A DNA stretch of 64,000 nt. It comes from Shewanella cyperi. GTDB taxonomy: Bacteria > Pseudomonadota > Gammaproteobacteria > Enterobacterales > Shewanellaceae. Every line of letters begins with the position of its first letter. The first letter of the stretch is position 1. Shown piece after piece: positions 1,679 to 43,014 of this stretch. Under the pieces are notes generated by a model. The model was not told the origin of the DNA and did no database searches. It saw nothing but the letters and a program-made list of their open reading frames with translations. Position numbers and translations under genes: made by a program. Location: assembly GCF_017354985.1 (NCBI RefSeq), contig NZ_CP071501.1, forward strand, positions 3,139,001 through 3,203,000, read 5' to 3'.

Positions 1679-1740
1679 AGATACGTTTCTAAGTTCATAT
1701 TGTCAGGTTCACCTAAGCCGGAGTGAAACACCACTACTTT

Positions 1741-1850
1741 GCACTGCCGCACCAGTGACCATCGGCGACAGGACGTCGCCGGTGAGCGCCCAAGGATGGG
1801 TTCACAGCGTGTCACTGGGGTGGCAGTGCGAAAGCCCACCGCAGGTGATG
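1741..1850 (+). repeat. Repeat A, copy 1 (palindromic intergenic element)
   Basis: About 110 bp, bounded by near-perfect inverted arms (CACTGCCGCACCAGTGAC and GTCACTGGGGTGGCAGTG) with an inner stem GGCGAC/GTCGCC. A second copy, about 85-90% identical by eye, lies inverted at 38851-38960. The second copy closes the inner stem with an extra pair (GGCGACA/TGTCGCC). It behaves like a REP or MITE-type non-coding element. No transposase or plausible gene is present. Confidence 0.75.
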
Positions 1851-1888
1851 TAGTACTTCCCGCGTAGGACGTTGCACAAAAGCATAAG

Positions 1889-2143
1889 ATAGCCGCTGTG
1901 CCAGCGGCACAAAGTCGTGGGTCTCCAACCCACACCCGGGCAAGGGGCTTTGCTCATCCAAAGCCCCTTGCAACCCAAAGGATGCCCCGACCGGAGCCGA
2001 CAGCCCCTCGGCCTTATGCTGAAAATTGGCTGGCGCGTCAGACGCTCATCCATGATTCGACTGACGCTGCTTCGGCATCCATGCCTCGCCACGCCATTTT
2101 CAGCAACGTCCTCGGCGGCTCCGAAGGGGGAAACAAGTGCAAC
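1889..2143 (+). repeat. Repeat B, copy 1 (structured 255-bp element)
   Basis: It begins with three simple hairpins: 1892-1908 (GCCGCT/AGCGGC), 1917-1933 (GTGGGT/ACCCAC), and 1941-1970 with perfect 12-bp arms CAAGGGGCTTTG/CAAAGCCCCTTG. A nested stem follows: 2018-2035 pairs with 2087-2104, and inside it GCGTCAG (2035-2041) pairs with CTGACGC (2061-2067). The tail contains CGGCTCCG, which can pair with the earlier CGGAGCCG. Copy 2 (39033-39286, minus) matches closely in the outer parts but differs in the inner sequence while keeping both nested stems. Small reading frames in the element share only their outer residues between copies, so I treat it as non-coding. Confidence 0.8.
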
Positions 2144-2223
2144 ACTCAAACATTGAATGTCACTTTGAGCAGGGGCAAACGTATACCCTAATGCCCTGGG
2201 GACTGGGCTCAACCCTAGCTGCT

Positions 2224-3981: not shown

Positions 3982-4001
3982 ATTTTCATTGCAACTGCGT
4001 T

Positions 4002-4640
4002 TCAGGCCTGGGTCTTAAGCCACTTGGCCACGTCATTGCCCAGGGTATTGACCGTGTGTTGCAGCACAGAGCAGGAGCCCTTGAAACCGCCCCAGAAGCC
4101 ACCGGTGGAGTTACGGCTGAACTCCTTGCTATCCACTTCCTTGCCATTGAGCCAATAGTGGGCCGTCACAGTCACGGACTTTTGATGGCCATTAAAGGGC
4201 ACACCGGCATGGCCCTCGCTGAAGACGTTATCTATGGTCAGTTTCACCACAGCACCTTCTTCCGGCAGGCTCTCGACCCGCTTGACCTTGAGTTTCTGAC
4301 CATTGGCATACTTGACCAGGGAATCGCTGAACTGGCGCCCCAGTTGCACACACTCGTTTTCCACCTTTTCATCTATGGTTTTGTCGGGGTTGTAGGGAAT
4401 GTCATTGAGTACATAGATGACGCCCTGCTCGACCTGAACCGGAGCGGCTGGAGCAGCTGGAACAGCCGGGGCTGCCGATGCAGCTGGCGGCTTTGGCACT
4501 GACGGAACACTTTGGCCTGCTTCCGCCTTGGGCGCATTGGTCTCGGCCTGAGTAGTGGTTTTCTGGGTTGAGCCGCAGGCACTGAGCAGCAGGGCCAGCA
4601 TCAGGGGAGCGGGTTTGAGCAAAAATGCAGAAGATTTCAT
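4002..4640 (-). CDS. Lipoprotein of unknown function with Ala/Pro-rich linker
   Basis: 212 residues. A signal sequence ends in the lipobox LSAC, giving lipidation at Cys22. Next comes a low-complexity Ala/Pro/Lys/Thr linker (about residues 26-70) and a folded domain of about 140 residues with two Cys (in ENECVQ and KGSCSV) that may form a disulfide. The Gly/Trp-rich stretch STGGFWGGFKGSC near the C-terminus is conspicuous. The family is not recognised. It is probably an envelope lipoprotein whose linker spans the periplasm. The start is supported by AAAGGA upstream. It stands alone between terminators. Confidence 0.75.
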   Translation of the reverse strand: MKSSAFLLKPAPLMLALLLSACGSTQKTTTQAETNAPKAEAGQSVPSVPKPPAASAAPAVPAAPAAPVQVEQGVIYVLNDIPYNPDKTIDEKVENECVQLGRQFSDSLVKYANGQKLKVKRVESLPEEGAVVKLTIDNVFSEGHAGVPFNGHQKSVTVTAHYWLNGKEVDSKEFSRNSTGGFWGGFKGSCSVLQHTVNTLGNDVAKWLKTQA

Positions 4641-4804
4641 GGCATATCCTTTGAGTAATGCTTTGAATAATAGTCCCTAAAACAGCCAATCTATATAAAA
4701 TTCCAAGAAAAATAAAGCATTGCACTCAGGCAACCGAGAACAAGAAAGCCAGGCCATGCCTGGCCCGGCTTATCACTGTTTAGGCTGTAACTTAACCACC
4801 TGCG

Positions 4805-5236
4805 TTATTTGACCACCAGCACTGGACAATGGGCCTGGTTGGCAACGGCCTCGGCCACATTTTCATGCAGGAAGTGGGCAAAGCCGGTGTAACCGTGGCT
4901 GGCGATGACCACCATGCCCACCTCGCCACTGTTGGCCTCGGCAACGATTTCTTCTATGGCATCCCCCTGACGGATGCGGGTGTCTATCTTGAGTTCGGTG
5001 TGCAGCCCGGCCAGCAAGGCCTTCATCTTGGCCGCAGCGGCCTCTTCCATACTTTTGGCCAGTTCGTCCGGGGTGATGGCCAAAATCATAAAGTTTTCAT
5101 CGCCCATGGGCCTTGGCACCACGTGCAGAATGCGAATGCCTACTTTGTATAGGTTGGCCATCTCCACCGCGTATCGCAGGGCGTGTGAGGCAGTATCGGA
5201 AAAGTCCGTTGGCCAGAGTATGTCTTTGCCACGCAT
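4805..5236 (-). CDS. Universal stress protein (UspA family) with degenerate ATP site
   Basis: 143 residues with the single-Usp-domain layout: an N-terminal DILWPTDFSDTASHAL and a C-terminal CPVLVVK. ATP-binding Usp proteins carry G-2X-G-9X-G(S/T). Here the region reads ASHG-YTGFAHFLH-EN, so the first Gly is Ala and the final GS is EN. That suggests a non-ATP-binding, UspA-type member. It has a strong ribosome site (GGGAGG) and is monocistronic. Stress protection is inferred from the family only. Confidence 0.9.
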   Translation of the reverse strand: MRGKDILWPTDFSDTASHALRYAVEMANLYKVGIRILHVVPRPMGDENFMILAITPDELAKSMEEAAAAKMKALLAGLHTELKIDTRIRQGDAIEEIVAEANSGEVGMVVIASHGYTGFAHFLHENVAEAVANQAHCPVLVVK

Positions 5237-33731: not shown

Positions 33732-33849
33732 CGCTCGCCTCTCAAAAGGCAAGGAAAACAGAGTCTTGACCCACGAGGGCCGAAAAAGGGTAGCATTTAC
33801 TCAGGCTCCACCGGGTAACCCGCCCGGGTTTAAGACCAAAAAACACAAT

Positions 33850-33964
33850 CCACAGGCAGGTATCCTGACTCGAAGGCATGGCCTTCACACAGTTGCGGGC
33901 ACAGTCCGGGCTTATCCCGGTTCCCTGTTCGGCCGGGTTGACCTAAGTCCCCGGCACCTGCAGA
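33850..33964 (-). promoter_or_regulatory. Cobalamin riboswitch controlling btuDC-cobTSUQO
   Basis: On the minus strand the element opens with CAGGTGCCGGGGAC, contains AACAGGGAACCGGG and the conserved core GCCCGCAACTGTG, and closes with AGTCAGGATACCTGCCTG. The first and last segments can pair as P1. Between its end and btuD lie 118 bases with a GC-rich stem near CCGGGCGGGTTACCCGG, which may be part of the expression platform. Adenosylcobalamin would be expected to shut the operon off. Confidence 0.92.
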
Positions 33965-34050
33965 TCGACAGCCACAGCTGTTTCGCGAGCTGATCATTAT
34001 CCGACTTTTGTTGACACTGGCAAGGCGCGCCTGTGGCTGTTTAGAAAAAA

Positions 34051-34839: not shown

Positions 34840-34908
34840 CTTAAAGCGCGGCGACGCCGGCTAATGCCTGCAGCGCCCTTGCCCTTGGGCGTCGGTTTCG
34901 CATATTAT

Positions 34909-34932
34909 GGACGTCTATACGTTTATATGTCC
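34909..34932 (+). promoter_or_regulatory. MetJ operator (three tandem met boxes)
   Basis: Three adjacent 8-mers GGACGTCT, ATACGTTT and ATATGTCC resemble the met box AGACGTCT with 7, 6 and 5 matches. They lie 64 bases before the chosen metH start, as expected for repression by MetJ with S-adenosylmethionine. Confidence 0.7.
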
Positions 34933-34995
34933 AAAATTTCAGCCGCGTTTTTTGCGAACGTTTGCGAACGGCGGCCCAGTATACAGGTATCAGTT

Positions 34996-37900
34996 ATGGC
35001 GACTTCCGCAACACCCGGCCACTTGGAGCTTCAACTCAGGGCACTGCTCAAGGAGCGCATTTTGCTGCTCGATGGCGCCATGGGTACCATGATCCAGGGC
35101 CACTCACTGGAGGAAGCCGACTACCGGGGTGAGCGTTTCAAAGACTGGCCCAGCGACGTCAAGGGCAACAATGATCTGCTGGTGCTGACCCAGCCCGGGA
35201 TCATCAGGCAGATCCACCGCGACTACCTGCTGGCCGGCGCCGACATCATAGAAACCAACACCTTCAACGCCACCACTATCGCCATGGCCGACTATGGCAT
35301 GGAAAGTCTGGCCGCCGAAATCAACCGGGTCGGAGCCCGCATCGCCCGCGAGGTGGCCGATGAAGTGGCCACCCAAACCGGCAGCCCGCGTTTTGTGGCC
35401 GGGGTGCTTGGCCCCACCAACCGCACGTGTTCCATCAGCCCGGATGTGAACGATCCCGGTTACCGCAACATTCACTTTGATGACTTGGTAGTGGCCTACC
35501 GCGAGTCCACCACAGCCCTGTTGGAGGGCGGCGCCGACATCATACTGGTGGAAACCATTTTCGATACCCTGAACGCCAAGGCGGCACTGTTTGCCATCGA
35601 GTCTGTGTTTGACGATTTGGGTCAGCGCTGGCCCGTGATGATTTCGGGCACCATCACAGATGCCTCGGGTCGCACCCTGACCGGCCAAACCACGGAAGCC
35701 TTTTACAATTCGCTGCGCCATATCAAGCCCATCAGCATAGGCCTGAACTGCGCCCTGGGCCCCAAGGAGCTGCGGCCCTATGTGCAGGAGCTGGCCCGCA
35801 TCAGCGAAACCTTTGTCTCGGCCCACCCCAATGCCGGTCTGCCAAACGAGTTCGGCGGTTACGATGAAACCCCGGCAGAAATGGCCGACATCATCGGCCA
35901 GTGGGCCAAAGACGGCATGCTTAACATAGTGGGCGGCTGCTGCGGCACCACCCCGGAGCATATCCGGGTGATCCGCGAGGCCGTAATCAAGCACGCCCCC
36001 CGCCCCCTGCCGGAGCTGCCGGTGGCCTGCCGTCTGGCGGGCCTGGAGCCCCTGACCATAGATGCCGGCTCCCTGTTTGTGAACGTGGGCGAGCGCACCA
36101 ACGTCACAGGCTCGGCTAAATTCCTCAAGCTTATCAAGGAAGGCAAATTCGAAACCGCCCTCGATGTGGCCCGGGAGCAGGTGGAAAACGGCGCCCAGAT
36201 CATCGACATCAACATGGATGAGGGCATGCTCGACGGCGTCGAGATCATGCAGAAATTCCTCAACCTTATCGCCTCAGAGCCCGACATCAGCCGGGTGCCG
36301 GTGATGATCGACTCCTCCAAGTGGGAGGTGATCGAGGCCGGCCTCAAGTGTGTTCAGGGCAAGTGCATAGTCAACTCCATCTCCCTCAAGGAGGGGGAAG
36401 AAAAGTTTATCGAGCAGGCCACTTTGGTGAAGCGCTACGGCGCCGCCGCCATCATCATGGCCTTCGATGAGCAGGGCCAGGCCGATACCCGCGCCCGCAA
36501 GACGGAAATCTGCAGCCGCGCCTACCGCATCCTGGTGGACCGGGTGGGCTTTGCCCCGGAAGATATCATCTTCGACCCCAACATTTTCGCCATTGCCACC
36601 GGCATCGAGGAGCACGACAACTACGCGGTGGACTTCATCGGCGCCATTGAGGACATCAAGGCCAGGCTGCCACACGCGATGATTTCCGGCGGCGTGTCCA
36701 ACGTGTCCTTCTCGTTCCGCGGCAACAACCCGGTGCGCGAGGCCATTCACGCGGTGTTCCTGTACCACGCCATCAAGGCCGGCATGGACATGGGCATAGT
36801 GAACGCCGGTCAGCTGGCGATTTACGACGATATTGACCCCGAGCTGCGTGAGCGGGTGGAGGCCGTGGTGCTGAACCTGCCCTGCAAGGTGCCGGGCTCC
36901 AGCAATACCGAGCAGCTGCTGGAAATCGCCGACCGCTTTCGCGGTGACGGTGGCGGCGCCCAGAAGAAGGAAGATCTCGAGTGGCGCAGCTGGCCGGTGA
37001 ACAAGCGCCTGGAGCACGCCCTGGTGAAGGGCATTACCGAATTTATCGACACCGACACCGAAGAGGCGCGATTGCAGGCCAGTCGTCCCCTGGATGTGAT
37101 CGAAGGGCCGCTGATGGACGGCATGAACGTGGTCGGCGATCTGTTTGGTGCCGGCAAGATGTTCCTGCCCCAGGTGGTCAAGTCCGCCCGGGTGATGAAA
37201 AAGGCCGTCGCCTACCTCAACCCCTTTATCGAGGCGGAAAAAGTCGAGGGCCAGAGCAATGGCAAGGTGCTGATGGTGACGGTCAAAGGCGATGTGCACG
37301 ACATTGGCAAGAACATAGTCGGCGTGGTGCTGGCCTGTAACGGCTACGAGGTGATTGACCTCGGGGTCATGGTGCCGGTGGAAAAAATCATCGAGGTGGC
37401 CAAGCGCGAGCGGGTCGACATTATCGGCATGTCGGGCCTTATCACCCCCAGCCTGGATGAGATGGTGCACAACGTCAAAGCCTTCGAGCGCGAGGGCCTG
37501 AGCCTGCCCGCCATCATCGGCGGTGCCACCTGCTCCAGGATCCACACCGCGGTCAAGATTGCGCCCCACTACCCCCATGGCGCCATCTATATTGCCGATG
37601 CCTCCAGGGCCGTGCCCATGGTGTCCAAGCTCATCAACCCCGAGACCCGCGCCGCCACCATAGCCGCCGAATACGCCGACTATGACAATATGCGCCAGAA
37701 GCGTCTGTCCCAGGCCAAGCGCAAGGAAATCGTTTCCCTGGAAGCCGCGCGGGACAACCGCTGCCAGCAGGATTGGGCCGCCAATCCGCCGGTTAAACCC
37801 AATAAGCTCGGCATTCAGGTGTTTGACGACTACCCGCTGGAGGATCTGGTCGATCGCATCGACTGGACCCCCTTCTTCCGCGCCTGGGAACTGCACGGTC

Positions 37901-38712
37901 ACTTCCCGCGCATTCTCGATGACGAAGTAGTGGGCGTCGAAGCACGCAAGCTGTTCGCCGATGCCAAGGCCATGCTGGCGACCATAATCCGCGACAAGTG
38001 GCTGACGGCCAAGGGGGTCATAGGCCTGTTCCCGGCCAACACGGTCAACTTCGACGATATCGAAATCTACAGCGACGAGTCCCGAACCGAAGTGCTGCAA
38101 ACCACCCACCACCTGCGGATGCAGCTGGAGCGGGTCGGCAACCACAACTTCTGCCTGTCAGACTTTGTTGCCCCCAAGGACAGCGGCGTCGCCGACTACA
38201 TGGGTGGCTTTGCGGTCTGCGCCGGCCACGGTATAGATGAGCACCTGGCGCGCTTCGAAGCCAACCACGACGACTACAACGCCATCATGCTCAAGGTGCT
38301 GGCGGACCGGCTGGCGGAAGCCTTCGCCGAACGCATGCACGAGCGGGTACGCAAGGAATTCTGGGGCTATGCCGCCGATGAGAACCTCGACAACGAGGCG
38401 CTGATCAAGGAAAAGTACAAGGGCATACGCCCCGCCCCCGGCTACCCCGCCTGCCCCGATCACACAGAAAAAGGCCTGCTGTGGGAGCTGCTCAAACCCG
38501 ATGAGTGTATAGATCTGAAGATCACCGAAAGCTACGCCATGTACCCCACAGCGGCGGTATCGGGCTGGTACTTTGCCAACCCCCAGTCCCGCTACTTCGG
38601 CGTGACCAATATTGGCAAGGATCAGGTGGAAGACTACGCCCGCCGCAAGGGCATGACGGTTGCCGAAACCGAGAAGTGGCTGGCCCCGGTGTTGGATTAC
38701 GATCCGGAGTAA
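34996..38712 (+). CDS. metH: Cobalamin-dependent methionine synthase
   Basis: 1238 residues, full length for MetH. Order: homocysteine-binding domain (about 10-330, zinc ligands in LNCALG and [10 protein letters not shown]), pterin-binding domain (about 355-615, [12 protein letters not shown] and [11 protein letters not shown]), cobalamin cap and B12 domain (about 650-900, with the cobalt-binding DVHDIGKN), and the C-terminal reactivation domain (to the end, with SAM-binding [12 protein letters not shown]). It transfers a methyl group from methyltetrahydrofolate to homocysteine. ATG 34996 (MATSATPGH) gives the usual length; earlier in-frame ATGs lie inside the MetJ operator. The neighbouring B12 uptake and salvage genes supply its cofactor. 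Confidence 0.97.
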
Positions 38713-38768: not shown

Positions 38769-38850
38769 TTGGGCTGGCGCCCAAGGCCTTACTGTAAAGC
38801 CCGCTGTTGCCAATTAGAGGAAGACCGGCTGCCAACTCTTCGATAACCAA

Positions 38851-38960
38851 TCACCTGCGGTGCGCTTTAGCACTGCCACCCCAGTGACACGCCGTGAATA
38901 CATCCTTGTAGGCTCAGCGGCGACATCTCTGTCGCCAATGGTCACTGGTGCGGCAGTGCT
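38851..38960 (-). repeat. Repeat A, copy 2
   Basis: The minus strand reads CACTGCCGCACCAGTGAC ... GTCACTGGGGTGGCAGTG, as in copy 1 at 1741-1850, with the inner stem GGCGACA/TGTCGCC. Here it follows B on the minus strand, whereas copy 1 precedes B. A and B are therefore separate elements that tend to sit side by side. Confidence 0.75.
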
Positions 38961-39032
38961 AGTCTATTGGTGTTTCTCTCCAGCAATTGCACAACTGTTC
39001 TAAATTTCAAAGAAATATCGCTATGCCGGACT

Positions 39033-39286
39033 GTTGCACTGATTCCCCCTTCGGAGCCGCCGAGGGTGTTGGGCAAGAAACGACAACAACCGAGGTAGGA
39101 TGCCGAGGTAGCGACAGTCGAGCAGGACGCGAGTCTGTCGCGTTGGCCGTTTCGCCCATAAACCCGAGGGGTTTTCGGCTCCGGCTGGGGGCATCCTTTG
39201 GGTTGCAAGGGGCTTTGGATGAGCAAAGCCCCTTGCCCGGGTGTGGGTTGGAGACCCACGACTTTCTGCCGCTGGCACAGCGGCTA
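39033..39286 (-). repeat. Repeat B, copy 2, bordering the cassette array
   Basis: 254 bp, inverted relative to copy 1. The 12-bp-arm hairpin CAAGGGGCTTTG/CAAAGCCCCTTG is unchanged (39206-39235). The inner part is re-sequenced but paired: GCGACAG with CTGTCGC (39135-39141 and 39111-39117 on the minus strand), where copy 1 has GCGTCAG/CTGACGC, and an outer GGGC..GAAACG / CGTTTC..GCCC stem (39142-39157 with 39071-39087) in place of the copy 1 stem GCTGAAAAT/ATTTTCAGC. Its terminal hairpin GCCGCTGGCACAGCGGC lies 117 bases before the first cassette. Confidence 0.8.
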
Positions 39287-39400
39287 TCCATTAACGCATA
39301 TAGCTCAAACAGTTAAGGTCAACTGTTCGAGCTATACAAAATCTGTAAGGTCGGATAGCTTGTAAGGTAACTGACCTTACAAGCTCGCAATAATAAAATG
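39287..39400 (+). other. Two-hairpin site at the left edge of the cassette array
   Basis: Hairpin 1 spans 39301-39334 (TAGCTC-A-AACAGTT / AACTGTT-C-GAGCTA, loop AAGGTC). Hairpin 2 spans 39357-39385 (perfect 12-bp arms AGCTTGTAAGGT / ACCTTACAAGCT). The segment is framed by TTAAC (39290-39294) and GTTA (39400-39403) and contains TAAGGT three times. It may be a degenerate attC or an attI-like site; I cannot decide. The first cassette would start at 39401. Confidence 0.45.
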
Positions 39401-39423
39401 TTATAACTCATCAGAGGTAAATC

Positions 39424-40101
39424 GTGAGTAAAAACTTGAAACAATGGAAGAATACGCTCAATTCAGAGCAGATAGCTCATGGGATGAACGTAGCTACAGC
39501 GAATGCCGTTAGACTGTTAAAAGATGCTGAGCTTTTGTTTCAGGCTGGTAGTTTTCCAACCGCGTGCTCAATTGCAATTTTAGCAATCGAAGAAGCTGGT
39601 AAAATTTCAATTCTTAGGGAGTTATCTGTAGCTCGTGATGGTGAAGACGTTAAAGAATCATGGAGATCTTATCGTTCACATACACATAAAAATGTAATGT
39701 GGATGTTTCCCTCATTAGTCCAGAGTGGCAAAAATACACTGGATAGTCTAACTGACCAGCTTGAAAGAGGTTCGGAAGCTACCGTCATGTTAGATGATTT
39801 AAAACAAATTGGGTTTTATACAGATTGCCTCGGAAATAGAAATTGGTCTGTGCCCAATGAGGTTATCGATGAAAGTGCAGCTACAGATATACTAAAAATA
39901 GCTCGGATTTTATGCAGAGATCGTACTTACTCAAAGAAAGAAGTAGATCTATGGGTAAAACATATGAAACCTGTTAAGGGTTGTGCTAGTAACATTGAAA
40001 AGCAAGCTCTTAATGATTGGTTTATTGAAATGCAGGTACAAGGTTTGATTGAAGAACATTCCACAAAGTTCTCTGATTTCATTGGTGCACATGAGTTATA
40101 A
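39424..40101 (+). CDS. AbiV-like abortive-infection (HEPN) protein, cassette gene 1
   Basis: 225 residues. The N-terminal half carries the AbiV-family pattern: NAVRLLKDAELLFQAGSF, then ACSIAILAIEEAGKISILR, and a downstream basic His-rich SYRSHTHKNV. These helical HEPN proteins are linked to phage abortive infection; lactococcal AbiV blocks phage protein synthesis by binding a phage protein. The start is GTG 39424 behind AGAGGT. AT-rich compared with the chromosome around it. The stop codon lies inside the attC, as is common in cassettes. Anti-phage function here is inferred from family and context. Confidence 0.78.
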   Translation: MSKNLKQWKNTLNSEQIAHGMNVATANAVRLLKDAELLFQAGSFPTACSIAILAIEEAGKISILRELSVARDGEDVKESWRSYRSHTHKNVMWMFPSLVQSGKNTLDSLTDQLERGSEATVMLDDLKQIGFYTDCLGNRNWSVPNEVIDESAATDILKIARILCRDRTYSKKEVDLWVKHMKPVKGCASNIEKQALNDWFIEMQVQGLIEEHSTKFSDFIGAHEL

Positions 40102-40222
40102 CAAAGCGTTTAAGACAAATTCGCAAAGCTCGGCATTTTGAGCTCAGGTCGATTTTTGTGTTTACGGCACAATGGATTAGGTTAGGTGGCAGGCGTCGCT
40201 CACTACTTAAGCGGCGTTAGGT
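40096..40222 (+). other. attC recombination site 1 (VCR-like length)
   Basis: It opens TTATAACAAAGCGTTTAAG and closes CTTAAGCGGCGTTAGGT. These ends are complementary (AAC/GTT, GCG, TTTAAG/CTTAAG) with unpaired bases, as in attC folded single strands. A central imperfect palindrome lies between. The expected cut is G40216/T40217. Total about 126 bp, similar to Vibrio-type sites. Confidence 0.82.
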
Positions 40223-40235
40223 TCTAGGAGAAACA

Positions 40236-40763
40236 ATGGCCGCAACTGATAGAAAAGTAAGAAGTGCTCTTCGCGCGCACTGGTTCATTCCTGCAGCGAT
40301 AGCTGTTGCCACCGCGGACATCTCGGCTGTATCACTGGACAATTGGTCAAATCCGGCACTACTTGAGGTGTGCCTAATCCTCGACTTAAGTGTTGTTATG
40401 CCGGCGCTGTATCTCTGGTGCTATCGCACTAGAGGAAAGGCCGCCATGCTGCGTGCTTTGAGCTTGTCCTGCCTTGGCATGTGGGTGTCGGGGCACGTTG
40501 TACCAAGCGAGTATCATCACATTTTGAGCTCTGTCGGCTTTGTTCGCTACATTGGACTTGCTGTACTCCTCGCAATTGAACTCAAGCTCGCGCTTGTGAT
40601 CTATCGTTCCGTCTTTAGCAAGGATCAAGACGATGCTCCAGCGGCATTGACTGCGGCGAAGGATGCGGGCATGCCGGACTGGGCAGCTCGGCTCATAGCG
40701 TGGGAGGCGTCTTTGTGGCGCAAGGCTTGGGATGTTGCTCGGCGCATTGTCGGTCGCAGCTAG
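40236..40763 (+). CDS. Small polytopic membrane protein, cassette gene 2
   Basis: 175 residues with four predicted membrane segments (about 15-35, 42-64, 71-88, 100-122) and a charged cytoplasmic tail (SKDQDDAPAAL onward) ending in an amphipathic Trp/Arg-rich stretch. No known family is recognised. ATG follows TAGGAG, 19 bases after the upstream attC cut, which is the typical compact cassette leader. Composition is richer in GC than cassettes 1 and 3. Confidence 0.7.
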   Translation: MAATDRKVRSALRAHWFIPAAIAVATADISAVSLDNWSNPALLEVCLILDLSVVMPALYLWCYRTRGKAAMLRALSLSCLGMWVSGHVVPSEYHHILSSVGFVRYIGLAVLLAIELKLALVIYRSVFSKDQDDAPAALTAAKDAGMPDWAARLIAWEASLWRKAWDVARRIVGRS

Positions 40764-40764
40764 C

Positions 40765-40824
40765 ACCCAACAAATCATTCAAGCCGATGCCACTTCGGGG
40801 CTTGGCTAAATTCAGGCGTTATAA
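40765..40824 (+). other. attC recombination site 2 (60 bp, class 1-like)
   Basis: ACCCAAC (40765-40771) matches RYYYAAC exactly. ATTCAAGCCGATG and the loop CACTTCGGGG follow, then CTTGGCTAAATTCAGGCGTTA. The halves pair across the loop (AAGCC/GGCTT). It closely resembles the classic 59-base elements of mobile integron cassettes. The expected cut is G40818/T40819. Confidence 0.87.
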
Positions 40825-40835
40825 GGCTAAGTAAC

Positions 40836-41108
40836 ATGCCAACAAAACAACTATTAGAACAGCTTTATCAGTCACTAACGAATGACTGTGAAATAGAAAA
40901 TCTTAAAGCAAAGGCAGAGAATCAAGAAGCTTATCACATTGACATCAATGGAACTCGTGTACACGTTTATCCTAGCTTCTTTATGAATGGGACATTAAGA
41001 GTCGAATTATCAACCCGAGTAAAATTTCTGTACTTATTTAATAAAGTAATCACCGGTAGTTTTGAAGTAGACCCTGTCGGTAATTTTCAATTTTACCCAA
41101 TTAGATAG
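40836..41108 (+). CDS. 90-residue soluble protein of unknown function, cassette gene 3
   Basis: An acidic helical N-terminus (MPTKQLLEQLYQSLTNDCE) is followed by a beta-rich body (HIDINGTRVHVYPSFF, LRVELSTRVKFLYLF). No family is recognised. It starts 17 bases after the attC 2 cut. AT-rich. After its stop there is a hairpin AATTGGC/GCCAATT (41114-41142), and no clear attC, so the cassette end may have decayed. No gene is seen in 41109-41338. Confidence 0.65.
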   Translation: MPTKQLLEQLYQSLTNDCEIENLKAKAENQEAYHIDINGTRVHVYPSFFMNGTLRVELSTRVKFLYLFNKVITGSFEVDPVGNFQFYPIR

Positions 41109-41304
41109 GGTTTAATTGGCGAATTATGCTCAACAGCCAATTGCTCAAGTTTACTCTACCGGCCCAAGCTGGCTCCGTAGGACTGGCGCATGATATCAGC
41201 CCTTTAGCAAAACGTTCATTGAACTTTGAAGATTGAATAAAAGGGGGAAAGTAGACACTGCGGCCTACCTTCAGGTGCCAATTAGGCGCCCCCGTCAGCA
41301 AGCT

Positions 41305-41341
41305 CATGACTTGCCGCCGCTGGCAAAGCGGCTACTCATTA
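41305..41341 (-). repeat. Terminal fragment of repeat B at the right edge of the array
   Basis: CATGACTTGCCGCCGCTGG and the following AAAGCGGCTACTCATTA match the end of B copy 2 (39257-39292) in the same orientation, including the GCCGCT/AGCGGC hairpin, with a few differences. It touches the stop codon of the GTPase gene. The array is thus flanked by direct copies of the B end. Confidence 0.6.
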
Positions 41342-42745
41342 CCGTTGCAACATCTTGATCAACCGATCAAGATCCGCCCCTCGGGCTCTGATGGTGAGCC
41401 GAATCCCCGACTCATGGTACTCCTCCTCGACGACCTGCATCTTGCCGTGGATCTCGCCCATAATGGCGCTGGCCGCATAGGGGATATCGAAGCAGGCGCT
41501 GAGCATCTGGGCGGCGATGGCGGCCACTATGGCCTGATGCACCCGGGCGACATCGGCGGGATCCAGGGCCGAGATCTGCATGGCTTGTGGAAATTCATGT
41601 GCCAACTCCTGGCGCTCGGCGTCGGTCAGGCAATCCACCTTGTTGAGCAGTAACAGACTGTCTTTGCTGCCCAGCTTGAGCTGAGCCAATACCTGCTGCA
41701 CCACGTGCAATTGCAAGCGGAAGTCTCTGTCACTGGCGTCCACCACGTACAGCAACACACTGGCATCCTTGGCCTCCTCCAATGTGGAGTGGAAGGCGGG
41801 CACCAGATCGTATGGCAGTTTATTGATAAAGCCGACGGTATCGGACACCAAAATCCTGGGCTGGGTCTGGGGTGACAGGGCCCGCACCGTGGTATCCAGG
41901 GTGGCGAACAGCTTGTTTTCCACCAGTACATCTGAGCCGGTCAGGGCCCGCATCAGGGACGACTTGCCGGCGTTGGTGTAACCCACCAGGGCGGCGCAGG
42001 GGGTCTCCAGGCGCGAGCTGCGCTGCTCCAGCATGACCTCCTGAACCTTTTTCAGATCGCGTCTGAGCTCGGCCTGCTTGTCGCGAATTTTGCGCCGTTC
42101 CAGCTCCACCGCACTCTCGCCCACATCCCGGCCGCCACGGCGCTGACGATCGCCGCCGTGTTCGCGGCGCACCCTGGGGCTGAGGTAATTCAGCCGCGCC
42201 AGTTCCACCTGCAGGCGGGCGGTTTTGCTGCTGGCATGGCGGCTGAAGATCTCGATTATGATGCCGGTGCGATCGAACACCTGCACCCCCAGCACATCTT
42301 CGACATTGCGCAGCTGCATCGGGCTGAGATCGCAATCGAACACCACCACGTTGGCCTGCTGACTGTGTTTCGCACTGTTTGACGAACCATGCGCCTTGCT
42401 GAGGAATTCCTCCAGCCCCTGCTCGTCGATATTGGCCAGCGAGTCCTCAGTGTCCTCATCCAGTTCCCCCGTCATGCGCGCCAACTCTTCCAACTTGCCG
42501 GCCCCCAGCACAGACAGGCGTTTGGTGGAATTCTGCCTCTGGGTTTGGGTGGAATAAACGGAAAATCCCAAAGTGCCGACCAGCCGCGCCAACTCCGCCA
42601 GGGAGCTGTTCACCTCTTCGGTGGTCACCTGGGGCGTGCGGATGGAGATTAGCAGCGCCCGACTGCGGCCGGAAACCGACTCTGACGAGCGCTGACTGTC
42701 CAGCGATGATGCTGCTGACGGGGAAGATAATTTGGATGATGACAT
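41339..42745 (-). CDS. HflX-type ribosome-associated GTPase
   Basis: 468 residues. An N-terminal HflX domain (VTTEEVNSSLAELARLVGTLG, and SPMQLRNVEDVLGVQVFDRTGIIIEIF in parts) and a coiled-coil linker (RRKIRDKQAELRRDLKKVQE) precede the G domain with G1 GYTNAGKSS, G3 DTVGF and G4 NKVD. A Ser-rich N-terminal extension (about 1-30) is unlike the classical hfq-linked HflX, so this may be a second, paralogous HflX. ATG 42745 is preferred; the longer open frame upstream has no homology. HflX proteins split or rescue stalled ribosomes. Confidence 0.85.
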   Translation of the reverse strand: MSSSKLSSPSAASSLDSQRSSESVSGRSRALLISIRTPQVTTEEVNSSLAELARLVGTLGFSVYSTQTQRQNSTKRLSVLGAGKLEELARMTGELDEDTEDSLANIDEQGLEEFLSKAHGSSNSAKHSQQANVVVFDCDLSPMQLRNVEDVLGVQVFDRTGIIIEIFSRHASSKTARLQVELARLNYLSPRVRREHGGDRQRRGGRDVGESAVELERRKIRDKQAELRRDLKKVQEVMLEQRSSRLETPCAALVGYTNAGKSSLMRALTGSDVLVENKLFATLDTTVRALSPQTQPRILVSDTVGFINKLPYDLVPAFHSTLEEAKDASVLLYVVDASDRDFRLQLHVVQQVLAQLKLGSKDSLLLLNKVDCLTDAERQELAHEFPQAMQISALDPADVARVHQAIVAAIAAQMLSACFDIPYAASAIMGEIHGKMQVVEEEYHESGIRLTIRARGADLDRLIKMLQR

Positions 42746-43014
42746 GGTGAGACTCACAGAGGCGGGCAGCGCCGGATACGTGCGGCAATTGCCGCATTTA
42801 TACGCAATAATTGCCCGGCAAACCAGCTTCCACCAAGGGTTTGGCAATATATTTTTTACCCCCTTGACGGCCGCCATTTTCGGCCTCCAGAGCCCTTGTC
42901 TGCGCCGGTACAAGGGATAAACGGACTAGGCAGCATCCCACTGCCCCAACCGGGCGAAACCGTGGTATAACCCTGACATGGTCCCCAAAGCGGATACCAC
43001 CTCAGGAACAACAG

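Follow-up and report, generated by a model that had tools for sequence, protein, structure and literature searches.

An attI-like platform with three gene cassettes and no integrase gene in a Shewanella chromosome, one of many probably filled in part by an integrase acting in trans

The three same-strand open reading frames (225, 175, and 90 aa) between metH and an HflX-like GTPase gene in a Shewanella chromosome appear to be the genes of an integron cassette array with its own attI core and no integron integrase gene (intI) beside it. Further attI platforms without intI occur on the same chromosome and in other Shewanella species. We consider it likely that these platforms were filled, at least in part, in trans by an integrase encoded elsewhere, and that the genome described here later lost its intI, which left the arrays frozen. 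The window, by which we mean the whole stretch of 64,000 nucleotides that was analyzed, covers positions 3139001–3203000 of the 4,136,363 bp chromosome. The comparison set was 129 genomes of the genus Shewanella, with the genome of the window, called the home genome below, included. From the home genome, 31 regions besides the window were fetched, picked by a dispersed repeat, attC matches, or the motif TGCGGTAGCYATG. G and L numbers are our labels for genomes and loci. The features of the locus are collected in Table 1.

Table 1. Features of the cassette array and its surroundings, in window coordinates.
Feature	Position	Strand	Basis or remark
Cobalamin riboswitch	33838–33976	minus	Rfam, 71 bits
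metH	34864–38712		named by eye
Dispersed repeat, ~440 bp	38849–39288	+	adjoins the platform on the left; the genome has many copies, partial or tandem
attI-proximal region	39289–39400	+	inverted repeats 39299–39336 and 39357–39385; 85% copy elsewhere in the genome
Promoter-like match overlapping attI, candidate cassette promoter	39371–39399	+	
attI core	39386–39403	+	crossover G^TT between 39400 and 39401
Cassette 1	39401–40216	+	bounded at G^TT
AbiV-like HEPN gene, 225 aa	39424–40101	+	PF18728, E 3.7e-43; PADLOC AbiV, E 1.4e-12
attC of cassette 1 (site 1)	40096–40222	+	R1, E 7.9e-16 over 64 kb
Cassette 2	40217–40818	+	bounded at G^TT
175-aa ORF	40236–40763	+	membrane-like by eye
attC of cassette 2 (site 2), short type	40765–40824	+	BLAST to sites in intI-array regions
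Cassette 3	40819–41214	+	bounded at G^TT
90-aa ORF	40836–41108	+	third cassette's gene
attC of cassette 3 (site 3)	41128–41220	+	R1, E 9.5e-6
Dispersed-repeat fragment	41305–41344	+	right of the array; 83% identity to 39257–39296
HflX-like GTPase gene	41339–42913	minus	named by eye

A covariance model, R1, was built from an alignment of 22 attC sites, all of them outside the window, in intI-array regions fetched from other genomes. R1 is not fully independent, because 18 of the 22 training sites had been found by similarity to the window sites; the other four came by pattern, kept from a regular-expression attC finder that gave chiefly chance matches in the intI arrays. The R''/R' and L''/L' helices of the training set covary, with 91.9% of cells paired vs 72.5% in shuffles and a covariation score of 0.427 for the 22-site set vs at most 0.126 for slid structures. 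On 20 intI-array regions, R1 gave 104 matches, training sites included, and 103 of these lie in array orientation.

In the window, R1 at E up to 10 matched sites 1 and 3 and no others. The original prediction, made from the sequence alone, had described two attC sites, at the positions of sites 1 and 2, separating three compact single-gene units, and had proposed a covariance search that would count against it if both sites failed to match. The search recovered site 1 at high significance, together with site 3, so the array is real, but the third attC had been missed; with it in place, the 90-aa gene becomes the third cassette. Site 3 has E 0.6 with a more general model, R2, vs the far lower value with R1 (Table 1), and is 75–81% identical to attC sites in intI-array regions. 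Site 2, at 6.6 bits (E 1.7 in a 2.5-kb search), falls below the covariance-model threshold, but its identity to sites in the intI-array regions L043 and L044 is 85% (54 nt) and 81% (62 nt), and its R'' is ACCCAAC; it is a putative attC through similarity only. When positions 39300–41250 were compared with the 129 genomes by BLAST, 56 of the genomes had a match, and among the matches listed most fall at about 40094–40222, 40760–40822, and 41137–41216. Single-strand folding of sites 1–3 is no better than that of shuffles (z = −0.81, 0.16, and 0.54), and the outer boxes, as arranged in the array, pair at 4/7, 3/7, and 4/7 positions.

Cassette boundaries were set at the G^TT crossovers. The starts of cassettes 1, 2, and 3 are complementary to the R'' of their own attC at 7/7, 6/7, and 3/7 positions, respectively, and the low figure for cassette 3 suggests that one of its ends has probably been exchanged or changed. 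The GC contents of 39.1, 54.2, and 37.9%, vs 57.1% for the window, agree with the original prediction, in which composition differs between the cassettes. The 225-aa protein of cassette 1 scores 147.8 bits with the HEPN_AbiV profile (curated cut-off 27.1) and has an Rx4H motif at residues 81–86; its family points to a possible role in phage defence. For the 175-aa ORF, neither Pfam (E up to 1) nor PADLOC gave a match, and the 90-aa ORF has no significant family match in either. Elsewhere in the home genome, a cassette gene at L089 4954–6021 matches BnzA (PADLOC, partial, E 6.4e-21) and one at L075 4243–4563 matches the CdiI immunity family (E 4e-16). Roles in defence or competition may thus extend beyond a single cassette of this genome.

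The core at the left edge of the array reads CGCAATAATAAAATG^TTA. It is the window's sole match, at up to three mismatches, to the intI-linked core pattern, with 0.07 expected, for a pattern written from the core common to the window and the intI-linked sites. The core CGCAnTAATAAAATG^TT is found again beside intI in other Shewanella genomes, and other members of the genus have CGCACTAATAAAATG^TT or CGCACTATACARMTG^TT in the stretch from intI to the first cassette. The shorter AATAAAATG^TT, contained in the window core, is the published attI2 core (PMC12901181). The 112 bp upstream of the crossover resemble intI-linked attI at the core only. They recur twice in the home genome. One is an 85% copy at 872216–872327, with an altered G^TT and then a DUF6678 gene; the other is a partial copy at 679697–679747, followed by genes with two attC matches (R2, E 0.085 and 0.0022). 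A related copy of this upstream type is present in each of two other species, with attC downstream. The window type is rare, with three copies in the home genome, one of them degenerate at G^TT. Promoter-like matches in the attI region number 2 vs 3.7 in shuffles and are not above chance. To call the array 'orphan', as the original prediction did, is misleading, since it seems to be headed by an attI of its own.

Is there an integrase anywhere in the home genome? Three matches to the phage integrase family exceed the cut-off, and we read them as XerC-like, XerD-like, and P4-type. No home-genome match to the integron integrase reaches the model cut-off, vs 77 of the 129 genus genomes in which it is reached. 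Six IntI proteins detected no intI remnant in 28 fetched home regions or in the window, nor did IntI proteins in three further home regions; the remaining chromosome was searched with family profiles only. Thus, the original prediction of no integrase in the window holds, and the genome-wide check for intI that it proposed ended in the same way. Its reading of the array as a CALIN or a remnant without integrase was right as far as it went, but it missed the attI core and the platforms described next.

At least 16 attI-like cores are present in the 31 fetched home regions and the window, none with intI beside it. By type, five are GCGCATGCGCACTATACAGCTG^TT, two are close variants of it, five are of a third type, three are window-like (one degenerate), and one is a variant seen by eye. 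A same-strand attC lies downstream at 12 of the 16 (E up to 0.1, 590-kb search). The matches are weak at two platforms, 872216 (18.7 bits) and the 1346652 locus (17.7 bits, with an E of 0.038 that comes from a search of only 19.5 kb), and no attC was found downstream of the platforms at 1955030 and 1179830. A genome-wide R2 search, in which 150 of 719 first-look candidates were scored, gave at least 18 candidates with an E of 10 or less; for 16 of these, E was below 0.05. Platforms of types other than the window's resemble intI–attI regions over 60 to several hundred bp. The five third-type platforms are 0.88–1.0 identical before G^TT, and 0/10 pairs are alike after it. Those of the first type, also five, resemble one another over the last 20–30 nt before G^TT only, in an ungapped comparison, and 1/10 pairs are alike downstream. 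In five home arrays, an element that looks by eye like an IS110-type element lies shortly past attC or the next cassette (L085 6721–7848; similar in L084, L090, L092, and L099), much like the attC-targeting IS1111 group.

The main core type, with up to two mismatches, occurs in 62 of the 129 genomes. G005 has 11 copies, G078 nine, G017 eight, and the home genome and G042 seven each. At the model cut-off, intI is found once each in G005 and G078 and not in G017 or G042; intI could be missing from the G017 assembly, a draft in about 50 contigs. We sampled 20 regions holding 21 platforms from G005, G017, and G078. IntI had no match in any of these 20 regions, and attC lies downstream at 18 of the 21 platforms. 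The break at G^TT was compared in 10-nt bins for 13 of the 18 G005 and G017 regions, where the core allowed direct alignment. Identity is 0.88–0.98 across the 60 nt before G^TT, falls to 0.53 in the first bin after it (which includes the common TTA), and is 0.24–0.31 in later bins; 1 of 78 pairs is alike across the 700 nt past G^TT.

The strongest sign that cassettes come and go without a local integrase is, from sequence comparison, the turnover at three loci. At the first, G008, G048, and G128 have about 3.5 kb of upstream sequence in common at 92–94%, with pntAB-like genes recognized by eye, and, after an interruption, an attI region (73–94%) whose similarity stops 3 nt beyond the crossover. 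Across their cassettes, the only alignment found that reaches 80 nt is one between attC sites, and similarity resumes within the last attC and runs into an MFS-like gene. At a second site, in G046 and G048, the flanks are alike on both sides and the cassettes differ; at a third, in G005 and G017, the pattern is seen on the left flank only. IntI had no match at any of the three loci. Homologous recombination between strains, or independent loss of intI after capture, could also account for these loci.

The second of these alternatives can be put for all the platforms: was each once a complete integron that captured its cassettes in cis and then lost its intI locally and independently? A hairpin followed by TGCGGTAGCYATG sits 41–94 nt past the 3' end of intI at eight distinct loci (one each in G005, G018, G046, G048, G049, and G128, and two in G008; the hairpin of G005 is partly visible). 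Other intI loci that were tested, several with little sequence on that side, gave no match to the exact pattern. Many platforms have the same motif on one side, a short distance upstream of attI: this is so at 12 of the 18 cores examined in G005, G017, and G078 and at the 13 home cores of non-window type, in two of which it is changed. This is what would be expected if an intervening intI had been deleted. The home genome has 16 exact copies of the motif vs one for the reversed control; three copies beyond the first regions mark a further platform, a leader without attI, and a coding-like sequence, the last probably by chance.

Two home platforms also sit where relatives hold intI. Near 1346652 (L242), the flank gene is 88–89% like that at intI loci of G008, G128, G048, and G049, and at this locus the intI match is split in G128, G048, and G049. 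At 2196044, similarity to the G046 intI locus extends over 3.7 kb of the left flank (83%), and similarity to the second G008 intI locus over 3.8 kb of the right flank (80%). Thus, intI has been lost at both places, and the cassettes there could have been captured in cis. Split intI matches were seen in four relatives (L206, L207, L210, and L211), and integrase decay seems common in this clade. In L242, the flank gene and the motif are separated by a transposase-like gene (IS1595-like by eye, 3989–4966). As a general account, local loss is nonetheless unlikely. It requires many parallel losses, and three species are without intI at one common site despite their differing cassettes; moreover, the motif is absent from the three home cores of window type, the window platform among them.

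The leader itself may be an RNA or DNA signal. Its hairpin arms change together, by eye, as GAAG/CTTC, GAAC/GTTT, and ACGA/TCGT, and conserved copies were noted at L083 4980–5105 and 14 more places in the home genome, in L216–L218, and in L222–L238. Rfam had no match in eight home regions with leader copies, and a permissive Rfam scan of one such region gave three matches at chance level only. Scanning one leader for promoters gave no match. A small-peptide gene was considered and rejected, as the start codon is not conserved.

A second alternative, that the array is an ordinary CALIN whose cassettes an integrase had put into secondary sites other than attI (attG), with no attI platform at all, we regard as improbable. 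The array does have the two or more attC sites and lack of a nearby intI that mark a CALIN, and CALINs are published as present in most Shewanella strains, with 115 single orphan cassettes in 41 genomes (PMC9229058). The core is also short and follows sequence unlike an intI–attI region. Set against a complete integron, the window has no intI adjacent to attI, but it does have a putative attI with G^TT and three cassettes ending in attC, the second through similarity only. Against the CALIN account, the same core stands beside intI in other genomes, a second copy of the window's upstream type in the home genome and related copies in two other species are followed by attC, and other platforms have 60 to several hundred bp in common with intI–attI regions. 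That the platforms are pieces of one large ancestral chromosomal integron, split by rearrangement and each decaying, is very improbable: the split intI of four relatives, its absence from the home genome, and the repeats beside many pieces fit such a break-up, but it predicts attC clusters without attI, and what is seen is several attI regions that are nearly the same in sequence but lead into unrelated cassettes, and platforms that stay put while their cassettes change.

The repeats in question are copies of the sequence that adjoins the platform on its left. A 19-nt segment of it has 44 matches in the genome at up to two mismatches, vs one for the reversed control, and copies precede many home platforms. 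The repeat also occurs at window positions 1717–2168 and about 40 other places in the genome, is often tandem with a period near 460–480 bp and long inverted arms, and lies mostly on the minus strand below 2.2 Mb and on the plus strand above. Related copies are found in G005, G017, and other genomes. We rejected the idea that it is a transposon carrying the array: it is found genome-wide, also away from cassettes, so its link to the array is one of association only.

At the locus itself, the gap between metH and the hflX-like gene is 2.6 kb in the window vs 5.4, 10.6, 13.5, and 24.4 kb in four relatives. The hflX-like gene is present in eight of the 129 genomes, the home genome counted; of the other seven, four have it no more than 25 kb from metH, and in three it is on a separate contig or distant from metH. 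A clean empty site was therefore not obtained. The original prediction had suggested comparing relatives for the same three genes in conserved order; in the four relatives that keep both flanking genes within 25 kb, no attC was matched between them, and by these comparisons the window platform is specific to the home lineage among the relatives compared. The Rfam search of the 64-kb window at gathering thresholds matched the cobalamin riboswitch alone.

We return to the reading that we prefer, of platforms filled at least partly in trans. In the window, the unit would consist of an attI core, with its G^TT at 39400/39401, and three cassettes, each with an attC, and no intI. An integron integrase would have inserted the cassettes singly at attI. 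With insertion one at a time, the AbiV-like cassette beside attI would be the latest arrival and the one best placed for expression. Cassettes of CALINs can be mobilized in trans by a functional IntI (PMC12444791, PMC9668308), and the relatives suggest that a single chromosomal integrase may serve many dispersed attI platforms in this way. The intI gene would then have been lost from the home genome, also at the two places where relatives carry it, and the arrays would now be fixed unless an intI is acquired.

More tentatively, and with somewhat less than even confidence, we suggest that some Shewanella run a distributed integron: one integrase with up to ten or so attI platforms without intI, which would multiply as non-autonomous units, are in many cases bounded by the hairpin and TGCGGTAGCYATG, and are associated with the dispersed repeats. 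The home genome would then be an end state, with the platforms filled and the integrase gone.

An integron is usually pictured as a single intI with a single attI and a single array. If one integrase serves many attI platforms in trans, each offers a favoured first position, so a cell could have about ten first cassettes and not one. Sharing of this kind, if true, could explain part of the CALINs and single cassettes found in genomes, as well as conserved positions with changing contents, and loss of intI would fix a cassette set, here one with a candidate phage-defence gene. We found no report of multi-copy attI platforms without intI in the titles and abstract openings listed by our searches of the open-access literature.

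How does the array compare with known systems? The protein of cassette 1 is matched by both the Pfam and PADLOC models of the abortive infection protein AbiV (HEPN), and its gene differs in being carried as an integron cassette, with an activity predicted from its sequence. G008, which we take to be Shewanella amazonensis with the chromosomal integron SamIntIA, has attI and attC types in common with the home genome and the same flank gene at one locus; intI is present there, whereas the home genome is without it. The CALINs and SALINs of Shewanella (PMC9229058) are like the window array in having attC cassettes with no intI near, in being scattered, and in occurring also in genomes without intI, but the window differs by the attI core before its cassettes and by its multi-copy attI platform; section 14 of that article describes orphan cassettes and does not mention attI beside them. 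In Xanthomonas, CALINs lie at conserved loci away from intI (PMC12444791), as here; attI is unreported at those loci in the part of that article consulted, whereas an attI core precedes the window cassettes. Finally, class 2 integrons and their delta-attI cassettes (PMC12901181) have the AATAAAATG^TT core that is also in the window, but there a truncated attI replaces attC in mobile integrons, whereas here the platforms head chromosomal arrays.
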